From Actinomycetota bacterium (GTDB lineage Bacteria; Actinomycetota; Acidimicrobiia; Acidimicrobiales; JAMCQF01): DNA of 34,841 nt. The notes below the pieces were generated by a model. That model saw nothing but the letters and a program-made list of their open reading frames with translations, had not been told where the DNA came from and did no database searches. The position numbers and the translations under genes are program-made. Positions 28,558 to 33,279 of this stretch are shown here, piece after piece (the first letter of the stretch is position 1; every line of letters starts with the position of its first letter). The stretch lies in the NCBI GenBank assembly GCA_023379605.1, contig JAMCQF010000225.1, forward strand, positions 1 through 34,841, in the 5' to 3' direction.

Positions 28558-29259
28558 TTACTTTTTTGCAGCCTGGAAGTATGGATCGGATCCACTTGCG
28601 TGGTCGGTAACATCTACCACGGAGATGATCTCAGGGATGGCCTCTTTTATGGCCACCTCGATGCCCTGAGAGAGCGTAACCTGTGCAAGCCCGCAGCCCT
28701 GGCATCCCCCGCCCAGGCGAAGGAAAGCCGCCCCCTGTCCTTCATCAATCGCAACCAACTCAGCATGGCCACCATGCATGGCAATGCTCGGATTGATCTG
28801 CTCCTCCAGGATCGCCACCACCTGGCGGGCCAGATCGCCAGAGAGGTCCTCTGTGGCCCCAGGGGGAAGCTCGGCTGCAAGCGACCTAGACCCAGTAGCT
28901 GCCGGCGGTGTGTTCGGGTTCAAGATCACAAGACCGCCGTCTTCGCCCTCGCCTGAGACATCCAGGGTGGCTCCTCTCAGCATCGCAAGGCTTGCACCTG
29001 GGATCACAACAGGAAGGTCATCGTGGTGCTGGACAACATCGCCCCTTCCTGCATGCGCCACGGCCTGGAAGAAGACATCGTAGGAGTACGCGTCACCGTT
29101 AATGCCGGCCACCTCGATCCAAAGCGCTAGCTTAGATGCATCCGCCTCATCTGCCCTGGCCTGGAGCACCATCGAGCGCGCGGCGTCGGTTACCCGCACC
29201 ACCGGCTCATTACCGGGCTCCTCGCTGTGCTGTGCGGCCTGTACGGGTTGGGTTGCCAT
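28558..29259 (-). CDS. nfuA: NfuA-like Fe-S carrier protein
   Basis: Carrier that delivers iron-sulfur clusters to target proteins. The N-terminal half (about residues 19-115) looks like a degenerate A-type (IscA/HesB) domain: VRVTDAARSMVLQ, YSYDVFF, but without the three cluster-binding cysteines. A Pro/Ala linker leads to a NifU C-terminal domain (about 140-215) with INPSIAMHGGHAELV and the cluster-binding Cys186-x2-Cys189 in RLGGGCQGCGLAQVTL. The ATG at 29257-29259 is chosen because upstream codons are not family-like and a TATTAT lies 6 nt before it. It is divergent from the ATP-grasp/radical SAM set with only 17 nt between the start codons. Confidence 0.93.
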   Translation of the reverse strand: MATQPVQAAQHSEEPGNEPVVRVTDAARSMVLQARADEADASKLALWIEVAGINGDAYSYDVFFQAVAHAGRGDVVQHHDDLPVVIPGASLAMLRGATLDVSGEGEDGGLVILNPNTPPAATGSRSLAAELPPGATEDLSGDLARQVVAILEEQINPSIAMHGGHAELVAIDEGQGAAFLRLGGGCQGCGLAQVTLSQGIEVAIKEAIPEIISVVDVTDHASGSDPYFQAAKK

Positions 29260-29279
29260 GTCACCATAATAGACACGTG
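29257..29279. promoter_or_regulatory. Overlapping divergent leaderless promoters
   Basis: The 17 nt between the nfuA ATG (minus) and the ATP-grasp GTG (plus) hold TATTAT on the minus strand (29266-29271) and CATAAT on the plus strand (29265-29270), sharing five base pairs. Each is exactly 6 nt from its start codon. Both genes would then be leaderless and the polymerases could not bind both sites at once. -35 elements are not clear. Confidence 0.55.
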
Positions 29280-30566
29280 AGCGCCATTGCTTACCCCAGC
29301 GCCTCCACTGGAGCCAAGAAGCCTCCCTGCGTGCTTTTGATCCTGCCCTCTGCCACCTATAAGGCAAGGGACTTTCTCCAAGCGGCAAAACGCCTTGGTG
29401 CAAAAGTCGTTATCGCCACTGATGAGGCCCAGGCCCTCGCCGGAGTGATGGGAGACCGCTTCCTGCTTCTTCCACTGGATGATCCCCACAGCTCAGCACG
29501 CATAATTGCTGAGCACTCAAAGCGGGTCCACTTTGACGCTGTAGTGGCTGTAGATGACCAGGGCACCTTGGCCGCAACTGCGGCAGCCGAGATGCTAGGG
29601 CTTGCCCACAACCCATTCGAGGCCACCGCAGCCACGAGAGACAAGCTGGCCATGCGTAAGAAGTTTGCAGCTTCACAAGTCCCCCAGCCGGCCTTTGCGG
29701 TGCTAGAGCCCGGCTCGGACCCAGGTGCTGTAGCAGGATCTATCGGCTTTCCCTGTGTCTTAAAGCCGATCTCGCTGTCTGGCAGCCGGGGCGTGATCAG
29801 AGCAGACGACACCCAAGGCGCCCGCTCTGCTGCAGAGAGGATATGGGCGATGCTGGCCTCACTTGGTGGAGCTGGACCGGCTGAGCTTCTGGTCGAGGAG
29901 TTCATTCCCGGTGTGGAGGTCGCAGTCGACGGGTTGCTGAGCTCCGGCTCTCTTCAGGTCCTAGCCATCTTCGACAAGCCAGATCCACTCGACGGACCGT
30001 ATTTCGAAGAGACGATCTACGTGACCCCTTCAAGGCTGACCGCCAGGGAGATCGCGGCTATAAGGGAAGCCACCAGCTCGGCAGCCCACGCTCTCGGGCT
30101 GGTTGAAGGACCTGTGCACGCAGAGCTTCGCCTTCACGCGAACAAGGCTCTTGCTCCAACTGTGATCGAGATCGCAGCCCGTAATCTGGGCGGACTGTGC
30201 GCGAGGATCCTCACCTTCGGAACTGGCATATCACTTGAGGAGATAGTCTTGGCCCACGCACTGCACAAGTTGGAAGCCCTACCAAAAATACAAGCTGGAG
30301 CGGCCGGGGTGATGATGCTACCCATTCCAGCGGGTGGAACCCTTGCGGCGGTGGAAGGCAGGAAAGAGGCCCTTCAAGTGCCGGGCATCACTGGGCTGGA
30401 GATAACCATCCCCCTAGGAGCTAGGGTCTACCCACTCCCTGAGGGCGATCGGTATCTGGGCTTTCTGTTCGCGCATTGCGAGGATCCGCGCGCTGCTGAG
30501 CTTGCCCTTCGCACAGCGTTCGCCTCCTTGGACATCCAGATCATTCCCACCGAGCCACCCGATTAG
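29277..30566 (+). CDS. ATP-grasp domain ligase
   Basis: Carboxylate-amine/thiol ligase of unknown substrate, related in layout to L-amino acid ligases and carnosine-synthase-type enzymes. A Rossmann-like N-terminal part (CVLLILPSATYKARDFLQAAKRLG) leads into the ATP-grasp core: PCVLKPISLSGSRGVIRADD, LLVEEFIPGVEVAVDGLL, DGPYFEETIYVTPS and the metal-binding region HAELRLHANKALAPTVIEIAARNLGG. The C-terminal part carries FGTGISLEEIVL. The GTG at 29277 is preferred because of CATAAT 6 nt upstream; a GTG at 29331 is possible. It lies 44 nt before the radical SAM gene on the same strand, suggesting a joint pathway such as forming an amide bond on a product that the radical enzyme modifies. Confidence 0.9.
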   Translation: MSAIAYPSASTGAKKPPCVLLILPSATYKARDFLQAAKRLGAKVVIATDEAQALAGVMGDRFLLLPLDDPHSSARIIAEHSKRVHFDAVVAVDDQGTLAATAAAEMLGLAHNPFEATAATRDKLAMRKKFAASQVPQPAFAVLEPGSDPGAVAGSIGFPCVLKPISLSGSRGVIRADDTQGARSAAERIWAMLASLGGAGPAELLVEEFIPGVEVAVDGLLSSGSLQVLAIFDKPDPLDGPYFEETIYVTPSRLTAREIAAIREATSSAAHALGLVEGPVHAELRLHANKALAPTVIEIAARNLGGLCARILTFGTGISLEEIVLAHALHKLEALPKIQAGAAGVMMLPIPAGGTLAAVEGRKEALQVPGITGLEITIPLGARVYPLPEGDRYLGFLFAHCEDPRAAELALRTAFASLDIQIIPTEPPD

Positions 30567-30597
30567 CCTGCCAACCCGAGTGGGCGGGGCTCGACGC

Positions 30598-30613
30598 TAC
30601 GTTGTTAAAGGTG
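30598..30613 (+). promoter_or_regulatory. Putative leaderless promoter of the radical SAM gene
   Basis: TACGTT (30598-30603) is 7 nt before GTG 30611. The gene could therefore have its own leaderless transcript besides read-through from the ATP-grasp gene 44 nt upstream. Confidence 0.4.
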
Positions 30614-32143
30614 AGGATACTCCTTGTCTCCACTTACGAACTGGGCCACCAGCCAGTCCACATAGCATCTCCTGCTGCAGCGCTGCGCATGAGGGGACAT
30701 GACCTTCGTTGCCTGGACTTGAGCGTCCAAAAGTGGGACCCCACCGGAGTTGAGCTCGCCAGTTGGGCCGAGGCAGCAGCCTTCTCAGTGCCCATGCACA
30801 CAGCAATGCGCCTCACCCTCGAAGTGATACCCGAGCTGCGTAAGTACAACCCCACGATGCCAGTTTGCGTCTACGGCCTCTATGCCGGCTTGGCCGTAGC
30901 CCCATATAGTCGTCTCGAGACTATCTACGCAGTAGCAGGAGAGTACGAGCCGTCACTTGTGCAGTGGGCAGAAGCCCTCGCAGCCGGTGAGGATCCTGTG
31001 GCTGCTGTCTGCCAAGGCCAAAGGGCTGGAGCGGGCGGGCAGGACCAGCCCAGGCGAGAAAGCCAGCTTGCCGGGTTAAGGGTGGATCTTCGGCGCCACA
31101 GCCAATCTGACAAGATGCTTCCCGCGCGCGATCTCCTTCCCCCACTTCAGCGCTACGCAAAGCTCCTCTCCAAAGGCACAGAGCAGCTCGCAGGATATGT
31201 AGAAGCCAGCACTGGGTGCTCGCACCGCTGCCGGCACTGCCCTGTCCCAGTCATATACGACGGGCGTATGCGCTCAGCTGCAGTCGACAACGTGTTGGCC
31301 GACATCGAACAGCTCGTCGCCATGGGTGCCAAGCACGTAAGCTTTGGCGACCCGGATTTCCTGAACGCCCCCCAGCATGCTCTAAGGGTGGTCCGGGCCA
31401 CCCACGATGCCTTCCCACAGCTCACTTTCGATGCCACGGTAAAAGTCGAGCACGTCCTGCGCCATGAGACGATCTGGCCAGAGATGTCCAAGGCGGGCTG
31501 CCTGTTCGTCGTCTCTGCGTTCGAGTCGACCGACGACGAGGTGCTGGCCAAGCTGGCCAAGGGCCATACGGTCTCAGATGCTGCCCGCGCAGTGGAGATC
31601 CTGCGCGAGCAGGGCATAGAGCCCAGGCCATCCTTTGTACCGTTCACCCCCTGGACCACTAGGGCGCAGATAGAGGACCTCTTCGAGTTCGTCTACAGGT
31701 ACGACCTTGTATACAACGTTGACCCCGTCCAATACGGGATACGCCTGCTTGTCCCTCCAGGCTCTCTGTTAGTGACGAGCGGGCAGCTGGATGGAATCGT
31801 CCAGTCCTATGATCCAGATCAGCTGGGCTACCCGTGGAAGTCGCCAGATCCCTGGACAGACATGCTGCAAGTAACCCTTGCCAAGATCGCCGAGGAGGCC
31901 GCTGCCTGCGAGCAGCCAGTCGAGGAGACTTTCGAAGAGATGGTGAGCCAGGTTACTAAAGGCAGATCCACACAAGAGTTCGCTCAGCCTGTCAAGTCGC
32001 CGACGGCTCCTTTCACCCCCGGCCAGCATAGACCTCGGCTCTCTGAAGCCTGGTTCTGCTGTGCTGAGCCGACCGAGGCACAGCACTTGAGCGTTGCCGG
32101 TCGGTCAGCCAGCCAATGCCTAGCGCCGGGATGCAGCACCTGA
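30611..32143 (+). CDS. CCAEP-tail radical SAM protein (Cys form of a selenoprotein family)
   Basis: Radical SAM enzyme of 510 residues. An N-terminal B12-binding-like domain (about 1-130; RILLVSTYELGHQP) lacks a clear DxHxxG cobalamin His. The 4Fe-4S cysteines are in GCSHRCRHCP (Cys203, 207, 210), followed by FGDPDFLN, VKVEHVLRHE and VVSAFEST. Near the end, RLSEAWFCCAEPTEA (Cys483-Cys484) matches the CUAEP/CCAEP tail of a family in which the second residue is often selenocysteine; here the codon is TGT (32060-32062). Two more cysteines close the protein. Residues about 135-170 are Gln/Arg/Ser-rich and atypical. The substrate is unknown. GTG 30611 or TTG 30602 could be the start. Confidence 0.88.
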   Translation: MRILLVSTYELGHQPVHIASPAAALRMRGHDLRCLDLSVQKWDPTGVELASWAEAAAFSVPMHTAMRLTLEVIPELRKYNPTMPVCVYGLYAGLAVAPYSRLETIYAVAGEYEPSLVQWAEALAAGEDPVAAVCQGQRAGAGGQDQPRRESQLAGLRVDLRRHSQSDKMLPARDLLPPLQRYAKLLSKGTEQLAGYVEASTGCSHRCRHCPVPVIYDGRMRSAAVDNVLADIEQLVAMGAKHVSFGDPDFLNAPQHALRVVRATHDAFPQLTFDATVKVEHVLRHETIWPEMSKAGCLFVVSAFESTDDEVLAKLAKGHTVSDAARAVEILREQGIEPRPSFVPFTPWTTRAQIEDLFEFVYRYDLVYNVDPVQYGIRLLVPPGSLLVTSGQLDGIVQSYDPDQLGYPWKSPDPWTDMLQVTLAKIAEEAAACEQPVEETFEEMVSQVTKGRSTQEFAQPVKSPTAPFTPGQHRPRLSEAWFCCAEPTEAQHLSVAGRSASQCLAPGCST

Positions 32144-32185
32144 GGAAAAGGCGTTCATTCCGCCCTTTCCAGTAAGGCCAGCCCA

Positions 32186-32935
32186 GTGAGCACGATGCAA
32201 GCACCCAAGAGCCGCCCAGTCCCAGCTTCCAGACCAGCTCCAAGCGCGGTACGCGAATGGGTGAGCTTTGAAGACCCAGCAGAGGACCGCACCTGGATGT
32301 TCGAGGTCACCTTTCTGCTTTCAAACTGGTCATGCATCTTCGGCTGCGGGTGCCAAGGCGTGCTCACCGGCCCAGCTGAGGAGCTAGAGCAGGGATGCTG
32401 TTCCTACGGGGCCCACTTCACTGGGGTGCAAGACCTGGAGCGGGTCGAAGCAGCTGCTCAGACCCTCAGCCCGGAGCAGTGGCAGCACTACCGCAAAGGG
32501 GCCAAGGGCATTGCAAAGCGCGCCCCAGGCGGCGGCTGGATGACCAGGCAGGCAGGCAGCGGCTGCATATTCCTCAACCACCCGGGATTCCCCGGTGGAG
32601 CGGGATGCGCTCTGCACCGGGCAAGCTTGGAGCGAGGGAAGTCGCCCATCACCATGAAGCCGGACGTCTGCTGGCAGCTGCCCTTGAGGATCTCGGATCG
32701 TGACGAGCCAGACGGCCATGTCACCACCACAGTCGAGCGTTGGGAGCGCCGTCACTGGGGAGAGGGAGGAAAGGAGTTTCACTGGTGGTGCACTGAGGAC
32801 CCCGAGGCATTCGTTGGCACGGTCCCAGCATACGTAGCGTTAGAGAAAGAGCTGGTCACGATGACCAGCAGCAAGGTATATGAGCTCCTATCTAAGTACC
32901 TGGAGCAAAGAGGTCGGTGCGGCGGAGCCCGCTAG
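32186..32935 (+). CDS. Cysteine-rich protein of unknown function
   Basis: A 249-residue protein with about ten cysteines grouped as in metal-binding domains: WSCIFGCGCQGVLTGP, EQGCCSYGAHF, GSGCIFLNHPG, GAGCALHRASLE, KPDVCWQLPLR and WWCTEDPE. The pattern resembles DUF3109/YkgJ-like zinc- or iron-chelating proteins, but this assignment is tentative. A Ser/Pro/Arg-rich N-terminus of about 25 residues precedes a conserved-looking core; there is no signal peptide or membrane segment. It lies 42 nt after the radical SAM gene on the same strand, with AAGG about ten bases before the GTG, and may act with it. A convergent gene follows. Confidence 0.8.
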   Translation: MSTMQAPKSRPVPASRPAPSAVREWVSFEDPAEDRTWMFEVTFLLSNWSCIFGCGCQGVLTGPAEELEQGCCSYGAHFTGVQDLERVEAAAQTLSPEQWQHYRKGAKGIAKRAPGGGWMTRQAGSGCIFLNHPGFPGGAGCALHRASLERGKSPITMKPDVCWQLPLRISDRDEPDGHVTTTVERWERRHWGEGGKEFHWWCTEDPEAFVGTVPAYVALEKELVTMTSSKVYELLSKYLEQRGRCGGAR

Positions 32936-32952: not shown

Positions 32953-32966
32953 GCTCCTTCAGGAGC
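32953..32966. terminator. Palindrome between convergent genes
   Basis: GCTCCT-TC-AGGAGC is a perfect 6-bp inverted repeat that overlaps the stop codon of the small minus-strand gene; a second short hairpin (AGCCA/TGGCT, 32933-32945) lies at the end of the plus-strand gene. Together they could stop transcription from both sides, although no T-tract is present. Confidence 0.35.
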
Positions 32967-33135
32967 CATTGACACCGGGCTCCTCCTCAAGCTCTTCCGA
33001 CTCGGCCAGGCACCACGAAGCGTGGTCCTCCTCTGGACCGGCCCCACACTCCACGCACCTTACGGCCCTGGTCTCCGTGCGCGCTCTCTTAAGACTTCGC
33101 GCCTCCTCAAAACGGCGATGGCGTCCCTTCTTCAC
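32959..33135 (-). CDS. Small zinc-ribbon-like protein
   Basis: A 58-residue protein with a strongly basic N-terminal half (KKGRHRRFEEARSLKRAR) and a C-terminal half with CVECG, then HASWC, a Cys-x2-Cys-x8-His-x3-Cys arrangement able to bind one zinc, and an acidic tail. GTG 33133-33135 is favoured because GGGGAG lies five bases upstream; an ATG 15 codons earlier lacks such a signal. Convergent with the cysteine-rich gene. No family is recognised; a nucleic-acid-binding role is possible but unproven. The basic/acidic split and ordered Cys/His spacing argue against a chance reading frame. Confidence 0.6.
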   Translation of the reverse strand: MKKGRHRRFEEARSLKRARTETRAVRCVECGAGPEEDHASWCLAESEELEEEPGVNGS

Positions 33136-33279
33136 AGCGACTCCCCGATCCGCAGCCCATCCACGGCCGACCGAACTCATCTTTCGAGAACGGCTCAGCC
33201 AGCGAGTCAGTTTTCGATCGCGACTGCTCTCGGAGTGCAGTTTATCTGCTGCTCGCGTTGGTGGCGCCAGTCACCCTTG

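Follow-up and report, generated by a model that had tools for sequence, protein, structure and literature searches.

The radical S-adenosyl methionine (SAM) proteins of the rSAM_CUAEP family (NF040546), so named by others, have to our knowledge no known function, and the term "CUAEP" is absent from the literature searched. One such protein is encoded in a contig of 34,841 nucleotides (JAMCQF010000225.1 of assembly GCA_023379605.1, analysed at its full length and called the window below) from an actinobacterial genome of the order Acidimicrobiales (2.5 Mb, 74% complete). Positions 29277-32935 hold three open reading frames (ORFs) in the same direction with short gaps between them, for an ATP-grasp ligase, the radical SAM protein and a cysteine-rich protein, and nfuA, for an iron-sulfur (Fe-S) cluster carrier, is divergent on the minus strand. 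Comparison with related loci leads us to conclude that the ATP-grasp ligase, the CUAEP/CCAEP radical SAM protein and a lysine-tailed carrier, which is NfuA here and YggX in Chloroflexales-type genomes, almost certainly form one functional unit, on the grounds of co-occurrence, linkage and tail correlation.

The closest described relative of the radical SAM protein is ArsL of arsinothricin biosynthesis (NF040542; PMC8552651), of which it is, by sequence comparison, a sister, with 27-33% identity over the whole length and, in both, a Cx3Cx2C motif and a vicinal cysteine pair in the C-terminal tail. ArsL was predicted to transfer a 3-amino-3-carboxypropyl group to arsenite (PMC8552651), and this transfer has since been reported in work known to us through its citation in PMC12159101. 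The ArsL tail reads RCCLKC, however, where the proteins considered here have WFC[C/U]AEP, and ArsL sits in arsenic operons, whereas an ars-like gene lies within about 10 kb in only 4 of the 81 stretches of DNA compared and none lies in the window, whose radical SAM protein scores 261 bits against the ArsL model, below its cut-off of 450. Some ArsL-like clusters with the RCCLKC tail, on Alicyclobacillus, Priestia and Pantoea plasmids (loci L134, L136 and L137), also carry an ATP-grasp gene, which suggests that arsinothricin-like products are further ligated; a common origin of that ATP-grasp protein and the one in the window was considered but found no support, the two being about 22% identical and not nearest relatives.

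The window ATP-grasp protein shares its fold and its LAL_C2 domain with the L-amino acid ligases (BL00235/3vot, BacD, DdaF), but it falls below the cut-off of every named equivalog (46 against 850 bits for BacD and 41 against 840 for DdaF, both rejected as assignments) and is linked to Fe-S carrier genes, not to peptide antibiotic genes. NfuA of Escherichia coli shares with the linked NfuA proteins a CxxC-bearing Nfu domain and an A-type-like region at the N-terminus, but it ends GEHSYY, where the linked proteins add xxAKK past the aromatic pair. A resemblance in logic is offered by the beta-lysylation of EF-P, in which the radical SAM enzyme EpmB makes an amino acid that the ligase EpmA attaches to a lysine. 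What would be shared is only the combination of a radical SAM enzyme with an ATP-dependent ligase acting on a lysine of a target protein, since the target protein differs and we know of no homology between EpmB or EpmA and the present enzymes; lipoylation is similar to the lysine attachment proposed below.

The ATP-grasp gene, recognized as such in a first-pass annotation made from the sequence, occupies 29277..30566 on the plus strand. Its product is of the L-amino acid ligase type: PF13535 (103.2 bits) and PF18603 LAL_C2 (51.4 bits) both exceed the gathering score, PF18130 also matches, and the nearest solved structure is 3vot (E 2e-36), that of the L-amino acid ligase BL00235. The start of the gene is likely the GTG at 29331, the position at which most homologues begin, rather than 29277. 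After its stop at 30566 comes the radical SAM gene (30602..32143, plus strand; GTG at 30611 the likely start in preference to 30602), which stops at 32143, ahead of the start of the cysteine-rich gene at 32186. The pairing of the two enzymes extends well beyond this genome and so withstands the test by which the first-pass annotation would have been refuted. Among 59 genomes of the order, scored positive for the radical SAM protein at a best E <1e-60 and for ATP-grasp at E <1e-30, an ATP-grasp orthologue is present in 20 of 20 radical-SAM-positive genomes and in 1 of 39 negative ones (genome G053). An 18-sequence alignment, run against 84,980 genomes, found at least 568 confirmed relatives, the best 80 of which come from Actinomycetota, Chloroflexota, KSB1, Poribacteria, Nitrospirota, Acidobacteriota, Elusimicrobia and Gammaproteobacteria. 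Where a locus lacked the ATP-grasp gene or did not hold it immediately beside the radical SAM gene, it was present in the genome in 26 of 28 cases. The two proteins occur together almost always, in many soil and water bacteria.

The third core member of the unit is NfuA, encoded at 28558..29259 on the minus strand (PF01106 NifU, 70 bits, above the cut-off), whose TIGR03341 match spans almost the whole model but scores 88 bits, below the equivalog cut-off of 269. The arrangement of three co-directional genes divergent from nfuA, with the coordinates given above, was described correctly in the first-pass annotation, but the edge of the system has to be redrawn, with the ATP-grasp/radical SAM pair retained, the cysteine-rich gene removed as a member and the partnership with NfuA, which had been missed, added. 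Divergence of nfuA from the ATP-grasp gene recurs in most related loci; nfuA instead immediately precedes the radical SAM gene in KSB1, Poribacteria and some Chloroflexota. Of 20 loci centred on ATP-grasp genes located apart from the radical SAM gene (one of them, L143, also holds a radical SAM copy), 15 have nfuA adjoining the ATP-grasp gene and 3 have yggX near it. Chloroflexales-type genomes have yggX in the place of nfuA; yggX, the ATP-grasp gene and the radical SAM gene are neighbours in L266, while L268 shows translational coupling, the stop of yggX overlapping the start of the radical SAM gene. In Actinomycetota outside the order, NfuA itself is almost confined to genomes with the ATP-grasp protein.

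Linkage is accompanied by a short C-terminal extension. Linked NfuA ends in a lysine tail, NPYYxxAK[K/G], while unlinked NfuA stops at NPYY; in the window the tail is PYFQAAKK (28561..28584, minus strand), with the conserved lysine (codon 28564-28566) at position +4 counted from the aromatic pair. Among 75 dereplicated linked NfuA proteins, 73 have that lysine at +4 and the other 2 at +5, and lysine overall makes up 2.3% of NfuA residues. Within the order, an xxxK[KR] tail is found in 19 of 19 linked and 0 of 28 unlinked NfuA, and the phylum sample gives 13 of 13 against 0 of 11. In Chloroflexota, where the comparison was made after the pattern had emerged elsewhere, the lysine is present in 25 of 25 NfuA from genomes with the ATP-grasp protein and absent from the sole NfuA (0/1) of a genome without it, which ends NPYYQHGH. 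Genomes with two Nfu proteins (G041, G053, G132 and G142) have the lysine tail only on the copy near the ATP-grasp gene, and the copy in G053 is the twentieth tailed NfuA of the order; as G053 has the ATP-grasp protein and a tailed Nfu and no radical SAM match, the tail tracks the ligase. Two unlinked NfuA that fall among tailed proteins on the tree have tails of the same length without lysine (APTHG and EPSGM), and the linked NfuA of L064, placed among tail-less proteins, has EPAQK. On the NfuA tree the tail state changes 5 times, compared with 31 when labels are shuffled, although few of the forks are well supported, which limits the independence of the changes. Some Chloroflexota NfuA tails carry 2-4 tandem copies of the motif (two in NPYYQPAKGAAGQSPFYAPSKG; NPYYQPAKG...SPFYAPSKG), a four-copy tail among them; because there are internal copies and the last residues vary, the constant feature is the lysine and not the C-terminal carboxylate. 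Linked YggX proteins of Chloroflexota end in PAKGGPRRK, PSKGGPRK, GRKGGGPARKK and similar sequences.

The radical SAM protein matches NF040546 with 528.3 bits over residues 6-494 (cut-off 500), a full-length match that includes the tail and places the protein in this family, to which the fixed ATP-grasp partner, the NfuA and YggX partners and their lysine tail are additions made here. The next-best family is ArsL, and the one after that scores 54 bits. The first-pass annotation had assigned the protein to the CUAEP/CCAEP family on the strength of its tail and had pointed to a Cx3Cx2C cluster site, and both assignments are borne out: the three cysteines of the [4Fe-4S] site (CSHRCRHC, 31217..31240, plus strand) are invariant in 33 sequences, and the tail (WFCCAEP, 32051..32071, plus strand) is retained in all 33 aligned relatives, where ExWFCCAEP keeps E, W, C, C, A, E and P without exception and F in more than 90%, conservation far beyond chance. 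The AlphaFold model (predicted local distance difference test score, pLDDT, 91; predicted TM-score 0.91) suggests a Rossmann-type N-terminal domain without a B12 motif followed by a radical SAM barrel, with AprD4 the closest fold neighbour, then TsrM and OxsB, and MgmA also among them; the tail region (481-490) is modelled confidently, at about 86, after a weak linker with confidence values of 67-78. Assignment as a cobalamin-dependent enzyme was rejected, as PF02310 scores 27.4 bits against a cut-off of 32.1 and DxHxxG is absent from the alignment.

The second tail cysteine, a cysteine in the window's own gene, is encoded by UGA, and so would be selenocysteine (Sec), in 28 of the 79 loci examined with the tail pattern. 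Thermomicrobium roseum is among the UGA forms; the annotation of its plasmid (NC_011961.1; L133, 11360-11380) stops the protein short at WFC, where the Sec reading gives WFCUAEP. A hairpin resembling a selenocysteine insertion sequence lies 3' of the UGA, with a conserved CAGTT at the loop; across 26 sequences pairing is 89.6% (27-57% in slid controls) and 5 of 7 pairs have changed on both sides (0 of 500 shuffles as high). Folding 3' of the tail is stronger, relative to shuffles, in the UGA than in the cysteine versions (p about 6e-6). SelB, counted only when over its cut-off because other GTPases blur it as a marker of Sec, is found in 4 of 4 UGA genomes of the order.

How such a unit might work is suggested by these features together with the kinship to ArsL. 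We propose tentatively, and at a little less than even confidence, that the two enzymes modify the lysine in the tail of an Fe-S or iron carrier with an acid made by the radical SAM protein and joined in an amide bond by the ATP-grasp ligase. The radical SAM protein, using SAM and the Cys-Cys or Cys-Sec pair of its tail, would produce an unusual amino acid or alter one, probably by a 3-amino-3-carboxypropyl transfer as in ArsL, with the tail pair probably holding a soft acceptor or the substrate. The ligase would link that acid to the side-chain amine of the lysine in PYYxPAK[K/G] of NfuA or YggX, and the small group then borne by the carrier would tune its cluster or its handling of iron. The lysine amine is the proposed acceptor because the lysine is constant, because a rule that depends on the C-terminal carboxylate is incompatible with the tandem and internal copies, and because the tail tracks the ATP-grasp protein, as in G053; a role for the radical SAM protein in supplying or altering the attached acid is suggested by its kinship with ArsL. 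That this amounts to a previously unrecognised modification, with a group built on a lysine in a portable tail found on two unrelated carriers and sometimes in tandem, is quite possible but rather less than probable.

Several considerations weigh against lysine modification. It is something we infer from genome data, and a short basic tail could also act as a docking peptide; the nearest characterised relatives of the ligase, judged by sequence, join free amino acids; and ArsL chemistry would be carried over by homology only, outside the arsenic context. Tail and linkage mostly share ancestry, and the tail changes on the weakly resolved NfuA tree are too few for a sign test. E. coli, in which we know of no system of this kind, has a YggX ending in PEDKK, so that a lysine-ended YggX tail alone is not specific, and it is just the longer tails of the KGG type that stand out. 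The main rival, which we consider somewhat unlikely, takes the tail to be a docking peptide without covalent change, NfuA or YggX delivering or repairing the oxygen-labile [4Fe-4S] cluster of the radical SAM protein while the two enzymes produce a free small molecule. It gains from the restoration of the lipoyl synthase cluster by NfuA/NFU1 (PMC9585516), from the nature of YggX as an Fe(2+)-trafficking protein and from the SufS/SufU/SufT, IscS and Mrp genes near some loci. Docking to the radical SAM protein fits less well with gene separation, after which NfuA is usually found with the ATP-grasp gene and not with the radical SAM gene, or with G053, which retains the ligase and the tailed Nfu and has no radical SAM match; and the tandem copies around an invariant lysine resemble a modified site.

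A product released as a free low-molecular-weight metabolite, either a thiol or selenol or a metal-binding dipeptide for Fe-S cluster or iron trafficking, with the tailed carrier as its protein user, seems to us distinctly unlikely. L-amino acid ligases, including the nearest solved relative 3vot, do make dipeptides, and the ATP-grasp genes of the ArsL-type clusters noted above look as if a SAM-derived amino acid were commonly ligated, but the ligase of those clusters is the distant one, and a free metabolite by itself would leave unexplained a lysine that is confined to linked carriers and multiplied in tandem. Least probable by far is an arsenic natural-product cluster, a variant of arsinothricin biosynthesis; kinship with ArsL and the arsM and arsR genes near one Chloroflexota locus (L131) speak for it, but it is rejected on neighbourhood evidence, given the rarity of ars-like genes and neighbours that are Fe-S and central-metabolism genes, and the tail and the sub-threshold ArsL score also stand against it.

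This unit supplies a (seleno)enzyme family without known function with a fixed enzyme partner and with a concrete target protein. Should the tail lysine be modified, this would add a new layer to bacterial Fe-S cluster handling and give ArsL-type chemistry a role outside arsenic; docking alone would mean a portable C-terminal tag common to NfuA and YggX, for which we know of no precedent in Fe-S biology. No description of the unit, of its NfuA and YggX partners or of the lysine tail was found in the literature searched, which was mostly without subscription papers, so that an earlier description is possible.

The cysteine-rich protein (32186..32935, plus strand), which the first-pass annotation took for a third component, is the product of a real gene, with 47-63% identity in 10 relatives. 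It is present in 46 of 59 order-mates, mostly without the radical SAM gene, and missing from several that have it, and its gene adjoins the system only in Acidimicrobiales-type loci. This distribution identifies it as a general protein of the order and not a dedicated component; the place of third member belongs to the divergent NfuA. It has no Pfam or NCBIfam match, and its AlphaFold model (pLDDT 71) matched no solved structure. Adjoining its gene in the window (32959-33180, minus strand) is one for a small conserved cysteine-containing protein (VKKGRHRRFEEARSLKR...CxxCG...HASWC), which also lies beside the cysteine-rich gene in L091, L114, L121, L087 and L054.

Other neighbours recur across the related loci. 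A DUF169-like protein of unknown function is found near nfuA in L065, L075, L083, L085, L098, L101, L127 and others, its gene sitting beside nfuA, the ATP-grasp gene or the radical SAM gene. The gene for pyruvate dehydrogenase E1 (aceE) occurs in two different arrangements close to the radical SAM gene, in loci of Chloroflexota (L065-L092) and of Acidimicrobiia (L086, L089, L104, L106, L111, L113 and L115), and in Chloroflexota lipA, aceF and lpd come after it; aconitase is close in L083, L094, L098, L100, L109 and L127, and citrate synthase in L119. This proximity of pyruvate dehydrogenase, lipoate, aconitase and citrate synthase genes in several lineages may be incidental, and a special tie was set aside. 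Within the window no Rfam match was found, and from the reading of its ORFs positions 1-27437 (minus strand) carry apparently ordinary genes for pyrimidine, shikimate and riboflavin functions and for SAM synthetase.

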